Assembly (NCBI RefSeq): GCF_003935895.2
Contig: NZ_CP054058.1
Coordinates: forward strand, 2,275,177-2,339,176
Direction: 5' to 3'
Origin: Scandinavium goeteborgense
GTDB lineage: Bacteria > Pseudomonadota > Gammaproteobacteria > Enterobacterales > Enterobacteriaceae
Length of the DNA stretch: 64,000 nt
The notes below the pieces were generated by a model, which saw only the letters and a program-made list of their open reading frames with translations, did no database searches and was not told the origin of the DNA. This document shows, one piece after another, positions 10,094 to 28,952 of this stretch; position 1 is the stretch's first letter, and every line of letters starts with the position of its first letter. Position numbers and translations under genes: made by a program.

Positions 10094-10383
10094 TGAAAAT
10101 GGCCAACCCGTCCTCTCCCGGCGACATCATTCAGGAATCACTGGACGCACTGAATGTCAGCCTGCGTGAATTTGCCCGCGCAATGAATATCGCTCCTTCT
10201 ACTGCCAGCCGTTTAATTACCGGAAAAGCCGCATTAACGCCGGAAATGGCCATCAAACTTTCGGTGGTTATCGGCAGCTCCGCCGAAATGTGGCTAAATC
10301 TGCAGACCAAGTGGAGCCTGGCCGACGCGCAAAAGCGTGTTGATACTTCCGGTCTGAAACGCCTGGCTTCGTTTTCAGGATGA
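10093..10383 (+). CDS. higA: HigA-type antitoxin, XRE-family DNA-binding protein
   Basis: A 96-residue protein with a lambda-repressor-like helix-turn-helix ([20 protein letters not shown]) and the HigA motif [25 protein letters not shown]. It neutralises the toxin and represses the operon. It begins on the last base of the toxin gene and its stop overlaps an ATG (10380) in frame with yddG, so yddG may be translationally coupled to the module. Confidence 0.92.
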
Positions 10384-10397
10384 ACAAGATTACGCTC

Positions 10398-11276
10398 ATG
10401 ACAAAACAAAAAGCCACGCTCATCGGACTGCTGGCTATTCTGCTATGGAGCACAATGGTGGGCCTGATTCGCGGCGTCAGCGAAGGCTTAGGCCCGGTCG
10501 GCGGCGCAGCGGCGATTTACAGCTGCAGCGGGCTGCTGTTACTCCTTACCGTCGGTTTTCCTCAACTCAAAACCTTTTCCTTTCGTTATTTAGTGGCAGG
10601 CTGCGTGCTGTTTGTCACCTATGAAATCTGCCTCGCGCTCTCTCTGGGCTATGCCGCCACTCGTCAACAGGCGATTGAAGTCGGGATGGTCAATTACCTC
10701 TGGCCAAGCCTGACTATCGCGTTTGCCATTCTGTTCAACGGACAGAAAGCCCGATGGTGGGTTGTGCCGGGGCTGCTGATTTCCCTGCTCGGCGTCAGTT
10801 GGGTATTGGGGGGTGAGAACGGTCTGAACCTGGTGGAAATAAAGCACAATATTGCCAGCAGCCCGCTCAGCTATATTCTGGCGTTTTGTGGGGCTTTTAT
10901 CTGGGCGACGTATTGCACCGTTACCGCCAAATACGCCAAAGGCAAAAATGGGATTACGCTTTTTGTTTTACTGACCGCGCTTAGCCTGTGGGCTCAGTAT
11001 TTTTCCAGCCCTCAGCCTGAAATGATTTTCAGCTGGCCGGTAGGGATTAAGCTCATTCTGTGTGCGCTGTCGTTAGGATTTGCCTATGCGGCGTGGAATA
11101 TCGGTATTTTGCACGGCAGTGTCAGTTTGCTGGCGGTGGGTTCTTATTTTACCCCGGTACTTTCTTCTGCGCTGGCGTCTGTTCTGCTCAGCGCCCCGCT
11201 CTCCTGGGCCTTCTGGCAAGGAGCCTGCATGGTATGTGCAGGCTCCTTGTTGTGCTGGTACGCAACGCGAAACTAG
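10398..11276 (+). CDS. yddG: Aromatic amino acid exporter YddG (DMT superfamily)
   Basis: Inner-membrane transporter of the EamA/DMT fold with ten predicted helices, exporting aromatic amino acids and, in Salmonella, linked to methyl viologen resistance. The start at 10398 aligns MTKQKATLIGLLAI with E. coli MTRQKATLIGLIAI, giving 292 residues versus 293; an upstream ATG at 10380 overlapping the higA stop would add six residues. Neither has a good ribosome site. The stop (11274-11276) abuts the stop of the convergent smvA gene with no spacer, and a perfect 12-bp inverted repeat lies in the last codons (11218-11248). Confidence 0.94.
   Translation: MTKQKATLIGLLAILLWSTMVGLIRGVSEGLGPVGGAAAIYSCSGLLLLLTVGFPQLKTFSFRYLVAGCVLFVTYEICLALSLGYAATRQQAIEVGMVNYLWPSLTIAFAILFNGQKARWWVVPGLLISLLGVSWVLGGENGLNLVEIKHNIASSPLSYILAFCGAFIWATYCTVTAKYAKGKNGITLFVLLTALSLWAQYFSSPQPEMIFSWPVGIKLILCALSLGFAYAAWNIGILHGSVSLLAVGSYFTPVLSSALASVLLSAPLSWAFWQGACMVCAGSLLCWYATRN
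11218..11248. repeat. Perfect 12-bp stem hairpin inside the 3' end of yddG
   Basis: AAGGAGCCTGCA and TGCAGGCTCCTT with a 7-base loop, encoding part of WQGACMVCAGSLL. It lies 29 bases before the convergent junction with smvA. No T tract follows on either strand, so it may act as an mRNA 3'-end stabiliser or a transcription pause rather than a normal terminator. Confidence 0.8.
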
Positions 11277-12767
11277 TTACACGGTCTGGCGCGCTTTCGC
11301 CAGGCCAAACCAAATCCCGACCGCCAGAATCAGCATCATGCTACCGGCACTGAACAACGCCACGCTGTGCGAGGTAATAAAGGCGCTTTTCGCTGCCTCG
11401 GCAACCGAATCCGCCAGCGTCGGCGTCAGCGTCTGAGCCAGCTGCATCGCTTCTCCGATCGACGACCCCGCCCGGCTGGCAGCCTCTGCATTCAGCCCTT
11501 CCGGCAGGATAATCGATGACGTATAGCTCCGGGTCAGAATCAGGCCAAACAGCGCAATCCCCAGACCGGCACCCAGCTCGTAGGCCATGGTTTCGATAGC
11601 CCCGGCTGCGGCCGCTTTTTCCCTTGGCGCTGCCGCCATGATCGCTGCCGTCGAGGCCAATAAGGCGCTGGCGGCGCTAAAGCCTAACAGCGTCATCAGG
11701 CCCCACGCCTGCCATTGCTGGGTGCTGAAATCGGTCATTGACAAGCCGAGGAAGCTGAATGCGCTCAGCGCCATACCGCCGGTTGCCACCTGACGCAGCC
11801 CCAGACGCGATACCATAACCCCGGCAATCGGGCCGCTAAAACCGCTGGCGAGCATTAACGGCAGCATAAACAGCCCTGCCTCAAACGGCGTTTTACGGTG
11901 CACAAACTGCAGCTCCTGCGCCATCAACAGCTCGAACCCCACCAGCGTGATCATCGCCGTGACCGCCATCATCACGCCGCTGAGAATAATGCGGTGCGTG
12001 AACAGGCGCATATCGATCATCGGCGTGCGGGCATTCAGCTGGATACGCACGAAGGCGGTGAGCAGCGTCGCCCCGAACAGCAGCACAAGGCCGACCATCC
12101 ACAGCGCCATCACGCCTTTCATTGCCGTTTTCGCGCTCCACACCAGCAGCAAAATAGCGACGATCAGCATCAGCGCGTGGCTGAAATTCAGCGGCTGTTC
12201 CCGGCGCCCCGCCTGGCGAGGAACCACCCGGGCGCTAAGTGCCATCACAAACAGTACGATCGGAACGTTGATCAGGAATACGGCGCCCCACCAGAAATGC
12301 TCGAGCACGATCCCGCCGATCAGCGGACCAAACGCCGCACCGCCGGACCCTACTGCGGCCCACATACCGAGCGCCATATTACGGTGGCGCGCTTCGCTGA
12401 AGGTATTGCGGATCCCGGCGAGCGTCGCCGGCACGATCATCGCCGCACCGATGGCCAGCACCGCACGTGCCGCAATCAGCCACTCGGCGGTGGTCGCAAA
12501 CGCCGCGCACAGCGAGGCCAGACCAAACAGGCCGCTACCGATAAGCAGCAGACGCTTAAAGCCGATGCGGTCGCCCAGCGCGCCCATCGGCAGAACCATA
12601 CCTGCCATCACCAGCGAGTAGATATCAATGATCCACAGCAACTCGTTGCCGCTGGCCCCGAGCGAGACGCTCAGCGTCGGCGCGGCGACGTGCAATACCG
12701 TGGCATCAATTGCTACCGGGATATACACCAGTACGATAGCAACCAACGTTAGCCATTGACGAAACAT
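11277..12767 (-). CDS. smvA: MFS efflux pump SmvA (methyl viologen and cationic biocide export)
   Basis: A 496-residue, 14-helix transporter of the DHA2 drug:H+ antiporter family beginning MFRQWLTLVAIVLVYIPVAI, as in Salmonella and Klebsiella SmvA, which export methyl viologen, acriflavine and quaternary ammonium biocides. Motif A appears as GALGDRIGFKRLLLIG. The start at 12767 follows GAGGGAAAGATT; the frame extending to 12860 passes through the operators and is rejected. It is divergent from its repressor gene smvR. Confidence 0.95.
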   Translation of the reverse strand: MFRQWLTLVAIVLVYIPVAIDATVLHVAAPTLSVSLGASGNELLWIIDIYSLVMAGMVLPMGALGDRIGFKRLLLIGSGLFGLASLCAAFATTAEWLIAARAVLAIGAAMIVPATLAGIRNTFSEARHRNMALGMWAAVGSGGAAFGPLIGGIVLEHFWWGAVFLINVPIVLFVMALSARVVPRQAGRREQPLNFSHALMLIVAILLLVWSAKTAMKGVMALWMVGLVLLFGATLLTAFVRIQLNARTPMIDMRLFTHRIILSGVMMAVTAMITLVGFELLMAQELQFVHRKTPFEAGLFMLPLMLASGFSGPIAGVMVSRLGLRQVATGGMALSAFSFLGLSMTDFSTQQWQAWGLMTLLGFSAASALLASTAAIMAAAPREKAAAAGAIETMAYELGAGLGIALFGLILTRSYTSSIILPEGLNAEAASRAGSSIGEAMQLAQTLTPTLADSVAEAAKSAFITSHSVALFSAGSMMLILAVGIWFGLAKARQTV

Positions 12768-23436: not shown

Positions 23437-24417
23437 TTAATATTTGCCGGAGAAATTGGCGCTAATGCGCTGTGCCAGATAGTCCCGGGCGGTGATTAGC
23501 GGGTACTTTTTGTCCGGCCCTTCAATCACCACATCTTCATTGGCCTGGCAGAAAAACGCCAGGCTGTAACGCGCCGCCACCGATTCGCCCGGCAGCGGGC
23601 TGCGCACGCGGTGGAAGTTCGACGGCAGCTGGTCATCGCTCCAGCGCATCAGCATATCGCCGATATTGCAGGTAATCAGCCCTTCCAGCGGCGCGATAGA
23701 CGTCCAGCTTTGTGTTTCCAACTCTTTCCCCGGACAGACCTGCAAACCGCCCTGTCCCGCCTGCTGAAACAGCAGCGTCAGGCAGTCAAAATCAGTGTGC
23801 GCCCCGGCACGCCACGGGCCGTCCGCTTCCCCGGTCAGCGCGAAATAGTGCAGCATTCGCAGTGTGCTCTGGTAGGTCTCTTTGGACGGGTCATGCGCCT
23901 GACTGAAAAACGCCTCCGGGAAGCCCATTTTCAGCGCGAAGCAGGAAAGCAGCTTCATGCCCACGGCCCAGCACTGACTTTCAAACGCCAGTACTGCCTC
24001 GCGAAAACCGGGCAGCGTGTCTTCGTCTGGCCACAGGCCTGACATGCGCGGACGCGTCACCTGATACGACTCTTTTTGATCGGGCTTACCCGTAGACGGC
24101 CTGATCTGCGCCCGGTATTCCCAGCCCGCGTTGCGATTAAGCGGATAGCGCCCCTTTACTTCCTGTGGCAGCGCAAAGAATTGCTCCGCACGGGCAAACG
24201 CGGCGTTGATATCCTCCAGCGGAATGCCGTGGCCGGAGACCTGGAAGAAACCAATTTCGGTCGACGCCTGCCACAACTCATCGGCGATTGAAGCCTTACG
24301 CTGGTCAAAATCAGACAGGTCGATAATGCGCACTTCGCGGTTTGTTTCCTGACCGCGAGCGCCCATACGGGATTCTTTGGTGAGTTCATGCATGGCGAAA
24401 GTCGAAGTGCTGTTCAT
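23437..24417 (-). CDS. 2-oxoglutarate/Fe(II)-dependent oxygenase (isopenicillin N synthase-like)
   Basis: A 326-residue soluble oxygenase with the DIOX_N region at about 31-130 and the double-stranded beta-helix at about 180-290. The iron facial triad is H207-x-D209 (AGAHTDFD) and H269 (SNFHRVRSP), and R283-x-S285 is the 2-oxoglutarate-binding pair. The start at 24417 follows a GAGG ribosome site. The gene has its own sigma-54 promoter (24567-24582) and riboswitch-like leader (24474-24530), both mirrored in front of the ABC transporter and 8-oxoguanine deaminase operon. This ties it to oxidised-purine metabolism. The exact substrate (xanthine, urate or another oxopurine) is inferred only from context. 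Confidence 0.83.
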   Translation of the reverse strand: MNSTSTFAMHELTKESRMGARGQETNREVRIIDLSDFDQRKASIADELWQASTEIGFFQVSGHGIPLEDINAAFARAEQFFALPQEVKGRYPLNRNAGWEYRAQIRPSTGKPDQKESYQVTRPRMSGLWPDEDTLPGFREAVLAFESQCWAVGMKLLSCFALKMGFPEAFFSQAHDPSKETYQSTLRMLHYFALTGEADGPWRAGAHTDFDCLTLLFQQAGQGGLQVCPGKELETQSWTSIAPLEGLITCNIGDMLMRWSDDQLPSNFHRVRSPLPGESVAARYSLAFFCQANEDVVIEGPDKKYPLITARDYLAQRISANFSGKY

Positions 24418-24473
24418 AGGGAAACCTCGTTAACGTAACGTCACAGAGGACCTGCCGTGGAGCGGTGCTCAAC

Positions 24474-24530
24474 CAGCGGACAGGTCGCGGCATCGTCGGT
24501 AAAGACGACTGAGCAATGACCCACCGGCTG
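24474..24530 (-). ncRNA. NMT1-type (xanthine-class) riboswitch aptamer, oxygenase leader
   Basis: On the complementary strand the RNA reads CAGCCGG, TG, GGTC, ATTGCTC, a distal hairpin (TCGTC / GACGA), GCCGC, GACC, TGT, CCGCTG. It folds as outer stem CAGC(C)GG/CCGCTG, internal loop, short stem GGTC/GACC, a second internal loop with ATTGCTC, and the distal hairpin. The core GTGGGNCATTGCTC is shared with the other leader at 24833-24846. The 3' part GACCTGTCCG can instead pair with CGGCAGGTC downstream (24440s), a ready expression platform. Family assignment is from memory of the NMT1 motif and gene context. Confidence 0.68.
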
Positions 24531-24566
24531 AGTTCCCGGCTGACAGCTTCTACTCAGGCTGACTCA

Positions 24567-24582
24567 AGCAATGCCCGTGCCA
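24567..24582 (-). promoter_or_regulatory. Sigma-54 promoter of the oxygenase gene
   Basis: On the complementary strand TGGCACG-GGCA-TTGCT, an exact match to the sigma-54 -24/-12 consensus (TGGCACG, 4 bases, TTGCA/T). Transcription would begin near 24556, about 25 bases before the aptamer. Confidence 0.88.
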
Positions 24583-24634
24583 GGCTGTGAACCCTTACGA
24601 TTTCAGTGAGGTAGAGATGCGCGCAAACGGCGAA

Positions 24635-24682
24635 TGCACGCCCGATGTGCAGCGGTGAAACTTTTTGCCACATGGTTGTGCA
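24635..24682. promoter_or_regulatory. Tandem NtrC-type enhancer sites
   Basis: Two 17-bp dyads: TGCACGCCCGATGTGCA (24635-24651) and TGCCACATGGTTGTGCA (24666-24682), matching the NtrC consensus TGCAC-N7-GTGCA fully or nearly. Their starts are 31 bp apart (about three helical turns), which suits cooperative binding. They lie between the two divergent sigma-54 promoters and could serve both. Confidence 0.72.
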
Positions 24683-24777
24683 ACGTTGGCCTGCATGAAA
24701 CAACAATTTCAGCGGGTGTCGCCGCAAATGCAGCGGATAATCCGTTAATTCAAGGCATTGCGAATAATTAGCGCGAA

Positions 24778-24793
24778 TGGCACGCCGTTTGCT
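24778..24793 (+). promoter_or_regulatory. Sigma-54 promoter of the transporter-deaminase operon
   Basis: TGGCACG-CCGT-TTGCT, an exact -24/-12 match. Transcription should start near 24804, roughly 25 bases before the riboswitch-like fold. Confidence 0.88.
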
Positions 24794-24828
24794 ACATCGC
24801 AAACAGAGTATAAGCGGTCAGCGTGGCA

Positions 24829-24876
24829 GCACGTGGGACATTGCTCTACAGCCTCGGCTGTACCTCGTCAGGGGGC
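24829..24876 (+). ncRNA. NMT1-type (xanthine-class) riboswitch aptamer, transporter leader
   Basis: GTGGGACATTGCTC, then hairpin TACAGCC-TC-GGCTGTA, then CCTCGTCAGG. The inner stem is GAC/GTC here and GTC/GAC in the divergent leader, a compensatory change supporting the fold. The following GGGGGC (24871-24876) can pair with GCCCCC (24904-24909), which in turn is complementary to the GGGGG ribosome-site region before the start at 24948, so control at translation is plausible. The downstream gene is itself an NMT1-domain protein, the context that named this motif. Confidence 0.72.
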
Positions 24877-24947
24877 GGCGCATTGCGTCGTGAGCATCGC
24901 TTAGCCCCCGACAGACCGTGTACAACGTTTTGATTTGGGGGTCTTTT

Positions 24948-25916
24948 ATGTCAATGTCGTCCGTTCGTCTGCTCACCCTGTGCGCCACACTCAGCGCAAC
25001 GTCCCTCTCCTTCGCGGCCGATAAACTGGTCCTCCAGACCACCTGGGTTGCCCAGGCGGAACAAGGCGGCTATTACCAGGCCGTCGCGGCGGGGATCTAC
25101 AAAAAATACGGTCTCAACGTCGAAGTGCGCTCCGGCGGCCCGCAGCTCAACAACATGACCTTACTGTTGGCCAACCGTGCCGACGTTATCGTCAGCTACG
25201 ATTTGCAGGTGCTGAAAGGCGTGGAGCAGAACTTCCCGCTGAAAGCCATCGCCGCGCCGTTCCAGTTCGACCCGCAGGGGATCCTCACCCACAGCAACGT
25301 CAATTCGCTCGACGACCTGAAAGGCAAAACCGTGCTGGTGTCTGCCAGCGGTCAGGCCAGTTGGTGGCCATGGCTGAAGAGTCAGTACAAGCTCGAAGAC
25401 AGCCAGGTGCGCCCGTACACCTTCAACATGCAGCCTTTCCTGGCGGATACAAACACCGTTCAGCAGGCGTATGCCACTTCCGAAGTGCAGCAGGCGAAAG
25501 CCGCCCAGCCGGACAGCAAATTCTGGCTGTTCGCCGAGCACGGCTACCCGGCGTACGGCGGCATTCTGGTCACGCGCAACAACTTACTGGCCGAGAAACC
25601 GGACGTCATGAAGCGCTTTGTCGAAGCCTCGATGGAAGGCTGGAAAGCCTATCTGGCGGACCCTACGATTGGCAATCAGCTGATCAAGAAAGAGAACCCG
25701 CAGATGACCGACGCGGTGCTGGCTTTTGGCGTGGCGCAGATGAAAACCCTGCATTTGATTGACGGCGGCGACGCGTCGAATAAAGGCCTCGGCGTGATGA
25801 CCGACAAACGCTGGCAGGCCACGCGCAACTTTATGGTCAGCGCCGGGTTGCTGAACAAAGACACCGATTACAAAGCCGCGTACACCACGCAATTCTATCC
25901 GCAGGCCGCGATGTAA
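24948..25916 (+). CDS. NMT1/SsuA-type ABC transporter substrate-binding protein
   Basis: Periplasmic binding protein of 322 residues with a Sec signal (hydrophobic core LLTLCATLSATSLSFA, likely cut before ADKLVL) and an NMT1/THI5-like fold (TTWVAQAEQGGYYQAVAAGI). Such proteins bind pyrimidines, purine-like compounds, nitrate or sulfonates. The start ATG 24948 has GGGGG about eight bases upstream; a GTG at 24918 is less likely because it gives a poorer signal peptide. It is the first gene of an operon with ATPase, permease and 8-oxoguanine deaminase, which points to oxidised purines as ligand. Confidence 0.88.
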   Translation: MSMSSVRLLTLCATLSATSLSFAADKLVLQTTWVAQAEQGGYYQAVAAGIYKKYGLNVEVRSGGPQLNNMTLLLANRADVIVSYDLQVLKGVEQNFPLKAIAAPFQFDPQGILTHSNVNSLDDLKGKTVLVSASGQASWWPWLKSQYKLEDSQVRPYTFNMQPFLADTNTVQQAYATSEVQQAKAAQPDSKFWLFAEHGYPAYGGILVTRNNLLAEKPDVMKRFVEASMEGWKAYLADPTIGNQLIKKENPQMTDAVLAFGVAQMKTLHLIDGGDASNKGLGVMTDKRWQATRNFMVSAGLLNKDTDYKAAYTTQFYPQAAM

Positions 25917-25925
25917 GGAGGCGCT

Positions 25926-26744
25926 ATGCTTCACGTCTTACCGTTTGAGCCGCCGGGTGCGGTGCAGCAAAACGAGGAGCCGCGCTTTCTGATGGCGCGC
26001 GGCGTTGAAAAAGTGTGGCCAAACGGCACCGTCGCGCTGGAGCGTCTGAATCTGAACATTGGCCGCGGCGAACTGGTGTCGCTGCTCGGCCCATCGGGCT
26101 GTGGCAAAAGTACGCTGCTGAAAATGTTCGCCGGGCTGGAACAGCCCAGCGCCGGGATGCTGCGCTGGAACGGTCAGCCGTCACTGGCGCAGCAGTGCCA
26201 GATGGCGATGGTATTTCAGGAAGCCACGCTGATGCCCTGGGCGACCATCGAGGAAAATGTACGTCTTCCGTTGAGCCTGCGCGGCGTCGGTAAAAAGGAA
26301 AGCACGCCGCAGGTGATGCAGGCGCTGCTGGCGGTCGGGCTGGAAAACTTCCTGCACGCCCGTCCGCGCGAACTTTCCGGCGGGATGCAAATGCGCGTGG
26401 CGCTGGCCCGGGCGCTGGTGATCGCCCCGGATCTGCTATTGATGGACGAGCCGTTCGGCGCGCTGGATGAATTTACCCGCCACAAGCTCGACGCCGATAT
26501 TCGTGCGCTGTGGAGCCGTCGCAATCTGACGGTGCTGTTTGTCACTCACAGCATTTATGAAGCGGTCTGGCTTTCGTCGCGCGTGATCGTGATGGGTGCA
26601 CGTCCTGGGCGCGTCATTGCCGATATCGAAATAGACGGTCCCGCCGTGCGCGATGCGGCGTTTCGGACCTCACCTGCATTCATTCGCCAGGTGGCGCAAC
26701 TTTCCGACTTACTCGAACAGGCCAGCGGAGGCGTGCATGACTAA
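25926..26744 (+). CDS. ABC transporter ATPase (SsuB/TauB type)
   Basis: A 272-residue nucleotide-binding subunit with Walker A GPSGCGKST, Q-loop MVFQEATLMPW, signature LSGGMQMRVALARAL, Walker B LLLMDEPFGALDE and switch histidine in FVTHSIYEAVWLS. It powers import by the neighbouring permease and binding protein. AAGGAGG lies directly before the start; the last codons overlap the permease gene. Confidence 0.93.
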   Translation: MLHVLPFEPPGAVQQNEEPRFLMARGVEKVWPNGTVALERLNLNIGRGELVSLLGPSGCGKSTLLKMFAGLEQPSAGMLRWNGQPSLAQQCQMAMVFQEATLMPWATIEENVRLPLSLRGVGKKESTPQVMQALLAVGLENFLHARPRELSGGMQMRVALARALVIAPDLLLMDEPFGALDEFTRHKLDADIRALWSRRNLTVLFVTHSIYEAVWLSSRVIVMGARPGRVIADIEIDGPAVRDAAFRTSPAFIRQVAQLSDLLEQASGGVHD

Positions 26745-27531
26745 ACCCCTGATTCAGTATCCGCAGGTCCAGCGCGCGCTGTGGCCGCTGCTGGTGCTGA
26801 TTATTCTGCTCGCGGTCTGGGAAATCGGCTTCCGTCAGTTCGCGGTACCGATCTACCTGGCACCTAAACCCAGCGATATCGCTGTCACCCTGTATCAACA
26901 GCACTCCGCGCTTTTTGGCAGCCTGCTGGTCACGCTGAAAGTCACCCTGCTGGCGTTTCTGCTGGCGGTGATGATCGGCACGCTGATTGCATTTCTTTGT
27001 GTGCAAAGCCGGGTGATTGAATCGTGCCTGATGCCGTGGGCGATCCTGTTTCAGGTCACGCCGGTGGTGGCGATCGCCCCGTTGGTGATCATCTGGATCC
27101 ACAACACCACCCTGGCGCTGGTGGTCTGCGCGATGCTGGTGGCGGTATTCCCGGTTCTGACCAACACCACACTCGGCCTGCGCAGCGTCAATCCTGGCCT
27201 GCTGAATCTGTTTTACATCAATCAGGCCAGCCGCTGGCAGGTGCTGATGCGCCTGCGCGTACCGAACGCGTTGCCCTATTTCTTCAGCGGATTACGCATT
27301 TCTTGCGGGCTGGCGCTGATTGGCGCAGTGGTGGCGGAATTTGTCGCCGGAACCGGCGGCTCCGGTGCCGGGCTGGCGTGGCAGATTTTACAGGCTGGTT
27401 TTCAGCTCAACCTGCCACTGATGTTCGCCGCCCTGTTCCTGATCACCTGCACCGGCCTTGCGCTGTGGGTGCTGATGTCATTAATCACCCGACTGTGCCT
27501 GCGCGGCTGGCACGACAGTGAACTGGCCTGA
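26737..27531 (+). CDS. ABC transporter permease (SsuC/TauC type)
   Basis: Inner-membrane permease of 264 residues with about six helices and the EAA loop (YINQASRWQVLMRLRVPNALPYFFSGLRI region at residues 161-189). The start at 26737 overlaps the ATPase stop in ATGACTAA, showing translational coupling; the longer frame back to 26653 lies inside the ATPase gene and is rejected. Confidence 0.9.
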   Translation: MTKPLIQYPQVQRALWPLLVLIILLAVWEIGFRQFAVPIYLAPKPSDIAVTLYQQHSALFGSLLVTLKVTLLAFLLAVMIGTLIAFLCVQSRVIESCLMPWAILFQVTPVVAIAPLVIIWIHNTTLALVVCAMLVAVFPVLTNTTLGLRSVNPGLLNLFYINQASRWQVLMRLRVPNALPYFFSGLRISCGLALIGAVVAEFVAGTGGSGAGLAWQILQAGFQLNLPLMFAALFLITCTGLALWVLMSLITRLCLRGWHDSELA

Positions 27532-27539
27532 GGATAACC

Positions 27540-28952
27540 ATGAGCACGCTACTGATTAAAGGCTGTACCGCCATTCTGACCGGGAACCGCGAAACACCGC
27601 GCAGTACCGGGACCGACATTCGCGTGGCCGACGGGCGAATCGCCGCCATCGGGACGCTGACGCCAAACGCCGATGAGCGAGTGATTGATGCCCGCGACTG
27701 CGTGGCGTACCCGGGTTGGGTGAATACGCATCATCACCTTTTCCAGTCGCTGCTCAAGGGCGAACCGCAAGGGCTCAACCAAAGCCTCAGCGCCTGGCTG
27801 GCCTCAACGCCCTACCGTTTTCGTGGCGCGTTTGATGCCGAGACGTTTCGCCTCGCCGCGCGGATTGGGCTGGTGGAATTAGTCCGTTCCGGCTGCACCA
27901 CGGTGGCCGATCATCACTATCTGTACTGGCCGGGAATGCCGTTCGACGGGGCCGCCATTTTGTTTGAGGAAGCGCAGGCGCTCGGCGTGCGGTTCGTGCT
28001 GTGCCGGGGCGGAGCAACGCAAACGCGCGGTCTGGAAAGCGCGTTACCGACGGCCTTGCGCCCAGAACGTTTTGACGACTGGATGCAGGACGTCGAACGA
28101 CTCGCCGGGCAGTTTCACCAGCCGCAGTCGGATGCGATGCGTCGCGTCGTGATGGCCCCGACCACCACGTTGCACTCGACCACCGCGCAGGAACTGCGGG
28201 AAAGCGCGCGGCTGGCGCGGGCGCTGGGCCTGCGTTTACACAGCCATCTGTCGGAAACGGTCGATTATCTCGATGCGTCACGGGCGAAATTCGGCATGAC
28301 GCCGCTGCAGTTTTGCGCCGAACAGGACTGGATCGGCGATGACGTGTGGTTCGCGCATCTGGTGAAACTGCTGCCGGAAGAAATTGCCCTGCTCGGTGCC
28401 AGCGGCAGCGGGATCGCTCACTGTCCACAAAGTAACGCCCGGCTCGGGAGCGGCATCGCGGATATCGTTGCCCTGGAACAGGCTGGGGTAAAAATCTCCA
28501 TCGGCGTGGACGGCGCGGCCTCCAACGAAGCCGCCGATATGCAAAGTGAAACCCACGCCGCCTGGCAACTACAGCGCGCACGCAAAGGGATGCTCGCCCG
28601 TCCGCGCTATGACGGCGGCACTTTCGAAGGCGGCGGCGATGCGGCCACCATAGAGGATGTGATCCGCTGGGGAACGTCCGGCGGCGCGGCGGTGCTTGGG
28701 CTCGATACCGGGGAATTACGCCCAGGGATGCCTGCGGATATCGCGCTGTATCAGCTCGACGACCCGCGCTATTTCGGTTTACACGATGTGGCAATCGGCC
28801 CGGTGGCCTGTGGCGGGCGTGCGACGCTGAAAGCGCTGCTGTGTCAGGGAAAAGTGATTGTCGAAAACGACGTGATTGCAGGGCTGGATTTGCGCGAGCT
28901 GGGCGCTCAGGCGGCGGAAGCGGTAAAACGGCTTCAGCAACGTGCGGGTTAA
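27540..28952 (+). CDS. 8-oxoguanine deaminase (amidohydrolase superfamily)
   Basis: Zinc amidohydrolase of 470 residues, most similar to the 8-oxoguanine deaminases (EC 3.5.4.32) that convert 8-oxoguanine to urate and ammonia. Metal-ligand histidines H64 and H66 lie in VNTHHHLFQSL; further metal or substrate residues lie in LHSHLSET, SGIAHCPQSNARL and IGVDGAASNEAADM. It starts nine bases after the permease stop behind GAGGATAACC. Release of ammonia fits the NtrC/sigma-54 control predicted for the operon. Guanine or another aminopurine deaminase is the alternative. Confidence 0.85.
   Translation: MSTLLIKGCTAILTGNRETPRSTGTDIRVADGRIAAIGTLTPNADERVIDARDCVAYPGWVNTHHHLFQSLLKGEPQGLNQSLSAWLASTPYRFRGAFDAETFRLAARIGLVELVRSGCTTVADHHYLYWPGMPFDGAAILFEEAQALGVRFVLCRGGATQTRGLESALPTALRPERFDDWMQDVERLAGQFHQPQSDAMRRVVMAPTTTLHSTTAQELRESARLARALGLRLHSHLSETVDYLDASRAKFGMTPLQFCAEQDWIGDDVWFAHLVKLLPEEIALLGASGSGIAHCPQSNARLGSGIADIVALEQAGVKISIGVDGAASNEAADMQSETHAAWQLQRARKGMLARPRYDGGTFEGGGDAATIEDVIRWGTSGGAAVLGLDTGELRPGMPADIALYQLDDPRYFGLHDVAIGPVACGGRATLKALLCQGKVIVENDVIAGLDLRELGAQAAEAVKRLQQRAG

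Follow-up and report, generated by a model that had tools for sequence, protein, structure and literature searches.

In Klebsiella, purines are used under nitrogen limitation by means of the hpx genes, and at glnA the tandem NtrC sites lie about three helical turns apart. The first report of the xanthine (NMT1) riboswitch class is that of Weinberg et al. (as cited in PMC7373994); Yu and Breaker later tested it (2020; PMC7373994). As described in the main text of that paper, it is an OFF switch that binds xanthine with a dissociation constant (KD) of ~3.7 µM and urate with a KD of ~25 µM, and it precedes genes for pcbC-like oxygenases, NMT1 proteins, tauA-type transporters and PRK12393 amidohydrolases. 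That text also reports an adjacent, opposed pair of aptamers in Hydrogenophaga intermedia and compares riboswitch-linked oxygenases with hpxDE; its authors saw no genes for oxidised-purine breakdown under the control of the class, and what the guarded pool is used for was not evident to them (PMC7373994). Here we analyze a locus of Scandinavium goeteborgense, contained in a 64-kb stretch of DNA that we call the window, in which two such riboswitches lie between divergent genes and each aptamer is placed at the predicted start site of a sigma-54 promoter.

The block occupies positions 23437-28952 of the window, where a minus-strand gene for a 2-oxoglutarate (2OG)-Fe(II) oxygenase is divergent from a plus-strand set of four transport and amidohydrolase genes. 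A first-pass annotation of this DNA had described an oxygenase gene divergent from an operon for an NMT1-type ABC transporter and a deaminase, and we recovered genes for an oxygenase, a binding protein, an ATPase, a permease and an amidohydrolase in the same places and orientations, together with the control elements between them:

23437..24417, minus strand: 2OG-Fe(II) oxygenase (Pfam domains DIOX_N and 2OG-FeII_Oxy; PF14226 and PF03171)
24506..24560, minus strand: xanthine riboswitch aptamer (RF03054) of the oxygenase mRNA, 50.9 bits, gathering threshold 36
24568..24582, minus strand: sigma-54 promoter core TGGCACGGGCATTGC, predicted +1 at ~24556, the first nucleotide of aptamer stem P1
24635..24651, no strand: NtrC-like site 1, TGCACGCCCGATGTGCA, a perfect TGCAC-N7-GTGCA
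24666..24682, no strand: NtrC-like site 2, TGCCACATGGTTGTGCA, two mismatches, 31 bp from site 1
24778..24792, plus strand: sigma-54 promoter core TGGCACGCCGTTTGC, predicted +1 at ~24804, one nucleotide before stem P1
24801..24851, plus strand: xanthine riboswitch aptamer (RF03054) of the transport/deaminase operon mRNA, 54.3 bits, gathering threshold 36
24948..25916, plus strand: NMT1/THI5-like periplasmic binding protein (PF09084, 93 bits)
25926..26744, plus strand: ATP-binding cassette (ABC) transporter ATPase, with taurine- and nitrate-type likeness, all below NCBIfam cut-offs
26737..27531, plus strand: ABC transporter permease (profile matches)
27540..28952, plus strand: amidohydrolase of the PRK12393 family (PF01979), 744.3 bits, cut-off 543; predicted deaminase of a guanine-like heterocycle

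Exact TGGCAC-N5-TTGC cores occur at 24568-24582(-) and 24778-24792(+) and nowhere else in the window; they begin 22 and 23 nucleotides ahead of their aptamers. When the T of the core is counted as -26, the predicted +1 falls on 24556 in the minus arm, exactly the first base of P1, and on 24804 in the plus arm, one nucleotide before P1. With transcripts predicted to start on the first base of P1 or one nucleotide ahead of it, the aptamer would itself form the 5' end of each mRNA. The twin sigma-54 promoters proposed in the first pass are supported by exact cores on both arms that are conserved in place in relatives, and it appears very probable from the sequence that sigma-54 would control both arms. 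No sigma-70-like promoter was found between 24300 and 25050, which is a weak point since only 0.4 were expected there.

Both 5' leaders are full-length matches to the RF03054 covariance model, above its gathering threshold and with the conserved core intact; the minus-strand aptamer has two non-standard pairs in the tip of P2. The idea that the leaders constitute a new RNA class was rejected, as both are RF03054 members (54.3 and 50.9 bits). The "twin riboswitch-like leaders" of the first-pass annotation are therefore riboswitches of a published class: the RNA, the gene types and the opposed pair are all described in the main text of PMC7373994. By analogy with the tested members of the class, xanthine or urate would very probably turn off both arms here. 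A scan of 24300-25050 detected no intrinsic terminator within either leader; the single terminator-like site, at 24724-24710(-), lies outside both, and shuffled sequences give 1.1. In both leaders a small hairpin is predicted directly after P1 (at 24847-24862 and at the corresponding minus-strand position), perhaps stacked on P1.

To see how far the pairing of promoter and riboswitch extends, we examined the best 80 of 232 named loci with relatives of the amidohydrolase, using a covariance model built from 14 aptamers. By script recount, 62 of these 80 loci carry 95 riboswitch matches. Within 100 nucleotides upstream, the best sigma-54 core has 0, 1, 2, 3 or 4 mismatches in 29, 38, 20, 6 and 2 of the 95 riboswitches, compared with 0.2%, 0.8% and 5.3% for 0, 1 and 2 mismatches when windows were drawn at random from these loci. 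The core starts 21-26 nucleotides before the aptamer in 92 of the 95; the exceptions are L082, with a one-mismatch core at -32, and L091 and L098, which have no site.

As this sample is biased toward one gene, riboswitches were also sampled regardless of the gene they precede, by whole-genome search, and a promoter was counted as positioned if a match above the Rfam cut-off had a core with at most two mismatches at -20 to -28. Genomes searched more than once were counted a single time. The search gave 84 matches, of which one identical copy was removed; 75 of the remaining 83 exceed the cut-off and 61 of these 75 are positioned. Fourteen of the 75 come from genomes picked for a PRK12393 amidohydrolase (14/14 positioned) and were left out of the class counts that follow, and one more, L177, lies at a contig edge and was not assessable. 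Genomes were divided by kinship, those of the same class as the window genome being taken as beta/gammaproteobacteria and those sharing only its phylum as alphaproteobacteria. Among beta/gammaproteobacteria, 46 of 51 riboswitches have a positioned core: 15 of 16 in the window genome and its Enterobacterales relatives, a figure that includes the window's own two and close sister species, 2/2 and 14/14 in Burkholderiales, 15/15 in Pseudomonas, 0/3 in one further Enterobacterales genome and 0/1 in another genome of the class. Random nine-position slots contain such cores at 0.08%, 0.13% and 0.56% for 0, 1 and 2 mismatches, and none of eight matches below the Rfam cut-off is positioned (two have a one-mismatch core at -32). 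The coupling of promoter and riboswitch is thus widespread in the sampled beta/gammaproteobacteria, and the circuit is not private to the window locus. The Enterobacterales genome with 0/3 (G1554) has its riboswitches at L169, L172 and L174; two of the three have cores farther away, one with one mismatch at -41 and one with two mismatches at -37, and the remaining one has none.

We aligned 132 promoters on their best core, comprising 92 of the 95 from the amidohydrolase-selected set (without L082, L091 and L098) and 40 from the whole-genome search with a positioned site, and kept 85 whose 45-nucleotide upstream flanks are less than 60% alike. Positions -25 G, -24 G and -13 G are invariant (85/85), -26 is T in 80 and -12 is C in 74, and most flanking columns hold 0.01-0.13 bits. 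The core columns are partly circular, since the pattern was used for placing the promoters and 40 of the 132 were chosen for having a site, so the alignment describes the shape of the site and not its frequency. Columns that played no part in placement, namely -27 C/T (71/85), -20 G/A (73/85) and -11 T/A (80/85), fit the sigma-54 consensus YTGGCACG-N4-TTGCW.

The tandem NtrC-like sites noted in the first pass are present, with 0 and 2 mismatches and 31 bp apart. Apart from the site at 24635-24651, the 64 kb hold no perfect TGCAC-N7-GTGCA. Looser matches do not exceed chance in the window (30, with 45 expected); the support for these sites comes from relatives. All 44 Enterobacterales promoters have a TGCAC-N7-GTGCA with at most two mismatches between -240 and -40 (0, 1 and 2 mismatches in 13, 19 and 12, against controls of 0.3%, 0.8% and 7.5%); because divergent pairs share one intergenic region, these 44 promoters amount to 31 intergenics. 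With no motif preset, TGCAC-N7 is the commonest five-base dyad, found in 18 of 25 non-redundant Enterobacterales intergenics. A second site with at most three mismatches lies 30 or 31 bp away in 9 of the 31 intergenics, compared with 0.65% per offset overall, and these nine fall into three related groups, the window genus, Pantoea and Mangrovibacter. The window genome encodes NtrC (817.6 bits, cut-off 558.6). On sequence grounds the NtrC link is well supported in Enterobacterales, and we have good confidence that NtrC would be the activator of the divergon.

Compared with promoters of the NtrC/sigma-54 glnAp2 type, the locus is alike in core, spacing, upstream palindromes and tandem sites set about three helical turns apart, and unlike them in that the transcript opens with a metabolite aptamer and two promoters share one enhancer region. 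Compared with the loci in the main text of PMC7373994, it has the same gene types and adjacent opposed aptamers; that account makes no statement about sigma-54 or NtrC, whereas here the aptamer sits at the predicted sigma-54 +1. The main text does not contain the terms NtrC, RpoN or ammoni, "sigma" appears only in a supplier's name and "nitrogen" only in a reference title. Term look-ups in PMC8266621 and PMC12316311 returned no statement of the coupling, and none came up in searches of the open PMC literature, a scope outside which most subscription papers and supplements lie. Term look-ups and passages of nitrogen-starvation and NtrC papers on Burkholderia, Pseudomonas stutzeri, Paraburkholderia, Pseudomonas putida and Xylella gave no mention of this operon; they do assign xanthine dehydrogenase and a urate oxidase cluster of Burkholderia cenocepacia to the NtrC/sigma-54 regulon. 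What appears new, judging by the sequence, is a sigma-54 promoter that would place the aptamer at its +1, not the RNA or the gene types.

The co-occurrence survey called for in the first-pass annotation, run here on the amidohydrolase-selected loci, found binding protein, amidohydrolase and 2OG oxygenase together in 45, arranged as a divergon in 27 and as a single operon in 18. Divergons, with the oxygenase on the other arm, occur in the window genus, Pantoea, Franconibacter, Pluralibacter, Mangrovibacter, Acinetobacter, Alkanindiges and a record named Enterobacter ludwigii; five of them (L022-L025 and L077) have the binding protein and no permease nearby. The 18 single operons run binding protein, amidohydrolase, oxygenase, and come from Rahnella, Serratia, Raoultella, Rouxiella, Pantoea agglomerans and others. 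Upstream of the riboswitch, a core of the form TGGCAT/C-N5-TTGT is seen in all of these 18, at L041, L043, L046, L047, L052-L054, L059, L060, L062-L066, L068, L069, L072 and L094. At L061 of Acinetobacter populi (10208-11682), a third riboswitch, whose core has three mismatches, lies directly upstream of a same-strand FAD_binding_4 oxidase gene.

In the Pseudomonas locus L071 (3580-10351; Pfam), a Rieske oxygenase and a ferredoxin-type reductase take the place of the 2OG oxygenase in the riboswitch operon, and these resemble hpxDE of Klebsiella. Loci L067 and L078 encode proteins of like N-terminus at the Rieske position (two in L078), a likeness confined to the N-terminus. In L067, L071, L073, L075 and L076 the gene that the minus-strand riboswitch faces encodes 270 residues, and in L076 it has a match to Tsx below threshold (PF03502, 25.7 bits, cut-off 27.2). 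The replacement of one oxygenase type by another in the same operon suggests, from gene content, that oxidation and deamination belong to one pathway.

The first-pass annotation had named the amidohydrolase an 8-oxoguanine deaminase, and this name is not supported. Against NCBIfam PRK12393 the protein reaches 744.3 bits (cut-off 543); its 384.4 bits to PRK08203, the model for 8-oxoguanine deaminases, fall short of the 532 required. Among proteins of solved structure the closest is 2paj (645 bits, residues 4-466 of the query; 3hpa, 267 bits), with which it shares the motifs APTT and GATQT; APTT stands where 3hpa and the genome's own 8-oxoguanine deaminase carry APCS. That separate PRK08203 enzyme (693.1 bits) is encoded beside a xanthine permease (L193, 4681-7528). 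We take 2PAJ to be the isoxanthopterin deaminase Sgx9339a, reportedly the subject of work by Hall et al. in 2010, and Q69, Y127, T160 and T208 to be presumable pocket residues of a 2PAJ-type enzyme. In an alignment of the window protein with 79 relatives (at least 50% identity and at least 80% coverage), Q69, Y127 and T160 are present in 80 of 80 and T208 in 78. An active-site cysteine is described for the 8-oxoguanine deaminase family in passages of PMC6186785; by our own reading of the sequences it would correspond to the cysteine of the APC segment. According to a passage of the review PMC5270733, Sargasso Sea enzymes of 2PAJ-like kind deaminate isoxanthopterin and pterin-6-carboxylate. We predict that the window amidohydrolase deaminates a guanine-like heterocycle, with an isoxanthopterin-type substrate likelier than 8-oxoguanine.

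The best solved match of the oxygenase is thymine dioxygenase, a base-oxidising enzyme (5c3p, 109.5 bits). Its iron ligands H207, D209 and H269 and the RYS motif at 283-285 (R283, S285) are invariant in an alignment with 44 relatives (45/45).

Other purine genes lie elsewhere in the genome. A guaD-xdhA-xdhB operon (L192, 8340-13725; C2 ~2181340-2186725) has a sigma-54-like TGGCATTCTCTTTGC 80 nucleotides ahead of the guaD open reading frame and an NtrC-like site 209 nucleotides further up. A urate ring-opening cluster (L191, 10510-13914; C2 ~3678510-3681914) has an exact sigma-54 core 70 nucleotides upstream and encodes a hydroxyisourate (HIU) hydrolase, an allantoate amidohydrolase-OHCU decarboxylase fusion and an aminotransferase-like protein that scores below its model cut-off. 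Neither carries a xanthine riboswitch. The block differs from hpx in its transporter and deaminase, and the urate ring-opening cluster of its own genome is separate from it.

In E. coli K-12, pptA and yddH are adjacent, and comparison with that neighborhood upheld the earlier placement of the block as an insertion between them in the window genome. The block lies between these flanks also in L019, L020, L021 and Pluralibacter (L032), and four of seven listed genomes of the window's genus, its own included, have two riboswitches each. No near-identical copy of the block was found among 20,395 E. coli records, and 14 plasmid records gave partial matches only, so no recent source is seen in those records.

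Taken together, we consider it fairly probable that the block is a scavenging divergon for nitrogen limitation with two locks in series, opened by NtrC and sigma-54 and closed by xanthine or urate. Under nitrogen limitation, phosphorylated NtrC would bind the shared, conserved sites and activate sigma-54 RNA polymerase at both promoters, and each transcript would start at or just before P1, with the aptamer as its 5' end. High xanthine or urate would fold the aptamer and block translation, as extrapolated from other members of the class (main text of PMC7373994). When nitrogen is scarce and xanthine and urate are low, a transporter for a heterocyclic base, an ammonia-releasing amidohydrolase and the oxygenase would be made; the amidohydrolase would free the exocyclic amine as ammonia, and the oxygenase would oxidise the same or a related ring. 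During starvation NtrC and sigma-54 would switch on several heterocycle pathways, of which the riboswitch would close this one, the signal being either plentiful xanthine or urate handled by other genes or a build-up of the block's own product. Nitrogen scavenging of a heterocyclic base as such we think probable. The logic of the first-pass annotation survives in part: sigma-54 and NtrC on both arms, twin oxopurine riboswitches and a plausible role in nitrogen scavenging find support in the sequence and in relatives, and the 8-oxoguanine deaminase label does not.

Several results weigh against this reading or narrow its reach. The exact sigma-54 pattern is not enriched genome-wide (16, with 13 for a reversed control), and with one mismatch allowed the window has 8 matches where 7.7 are expected; because of this the string alone is not evidence, which lies in position and conservation, and on fixed position and conservation across species we rejected the possibility that the cores are chance strings. 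Five of the 51 beta/gammaproteobacterial riboswitches have no core at the usual place, and most of those from other classes of the phylum are not coupled to one (1/9 assessable). All 18 single-operon loci have TTGT for TTGC, a change of -12 from C to T with the spacing almost unchanged; the promoter there may be weaker or altered as a result. NtrC-like sites with at most two mismatches are found in 13/17 of the Pseudomonas group (control ~12%) and 9/29 in Acinetobacter (control ~8%), and TGCAC is the top dyad in neither. When the leaders were folded with P1 forced or forbidden, the ribosome site of the plus leader was paired both ways, and free folding of both leaders showed no switching mechanism that hides the ribosome site; as its pairing changes too little to point to a mechanism, the switching step is borrowed from the published class. 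Phenotypes in the literature differ: on urate, an ntrC mutant of Pseudomonas stutzeri is described as impaired and one of Burkholderia cenocepacia as growing better, both in strains taken irrespective of riboswitch content.

If the sigma-54 promoters are real and another enhancer-binding protein drives them, the signal would be something other than nitrogen. The weak enrichment of NtrC-like sites in Acinetobacter, the presence of other NtrC-family proteins in the genome and the LysR gene that adjoins the Rahnella-type locus would suit this explanation, but the occurrence of TGCAC-N7-GTGCA in every Enterobacterales promoter, its rank as top dyad and the 30-31 bp tandem spacing in nine of 31 intergenics point to NtrC, and we regard a different activator as quite improbable. 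Another possibility is that the block imports 8-oxoguanine and its kin and deaminates them to urate and ammonia, with the urate closing the riboswitches. Such product feedback would be direct, the main text of PMC7373994 gives urate as a ligand (KD ~25 µM), and enzymes of the wider family are described as promiscuous in passages of PMC6186785; against these stand the profile score of 384.4 bits where 532 is the cut-off, the closer fit to 2paj (645 bits) than to 3hpa (267 bits), APTT for APCS with T208 kept in 78 of 80 proteins, and the dedicated PRK08203 enzyme (693 bits) by the xanthine permease. This account is improbable, as is 8-oxoguanine as the substrate.

Pterin degradation is a tentative alternative that we take seriously: the amidohydrolase would act on isoxanthopterin or pterin-6-carboxylate, the oxygenase on a pterin (for example, its 6-substituent), and xanthine or urate would signal that purines, a richer source of nitrogen, are available. 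The nearest solved relative 2paj, the base-oxidising nature of the oxygenase's closest solved match and the encoding of purine catabolism elsewhere in the genome agree with it; on the other side, the function of 2PAJ is our assumption, the known riboswitch ligands are purines, and the Tsx-like channel and Rieske/reductase partners suit purines at least as well. The activities of the Sargasso Sea enzymes speak for it (PMC5270733, in the passage cited above), while in the main text of PMC7373994 isoxanthopterin appears only in the list of chemicals. Most likely the substrate is an oxidised heterocycle resembling guanine, and an isoxanthopterin-type pterin ranks before 8-oxoguanine; we see nearly balanced chances for a pterin-type substrate and rather lower ones for another guanine-like purine. 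A pterin source would suit the insect- and plant-associated relatives. In beta/gammaproteobacteria, the riboswitch and the sigma-54 core could even be one fused unit, held by selection at a fixed spacing that lets the RNA open with the aptamer, as a gate for nitrogen starvation AND NOT oxopurine in pterin/purine scavenging, whose natural ligand may be the pathway's own deaminated ring; 7-hydroxylumazine (violapterin), with a 2,4-dioxo ring like xanthine, may be such a ligand. Taken jointly, this whole proposal is unlikely. Lumazines and violapterin are not mentioned in the main text of PMC7373994.

The preferred reading, a nitrogen-limitation divergon under two locks, bears on the puzzle raised in the main text of PMC7373994, to which sigma-54/NtrC promoters fixed before the aptamer would offer a direct and testable answer. 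The locus would exemplify an aptamer tied to the +1 of a single promoter type. Ammonia limitation would be the growth condition for the orphan oxygenases and amidohydrolases, with pterins as candidate substrates. If the reading is true, the genes that this riboswitch controls in beta/gammaproteobacteria would belong to the nitrogen-starvation response, with plentiful xanthine or urate as their stop signal.

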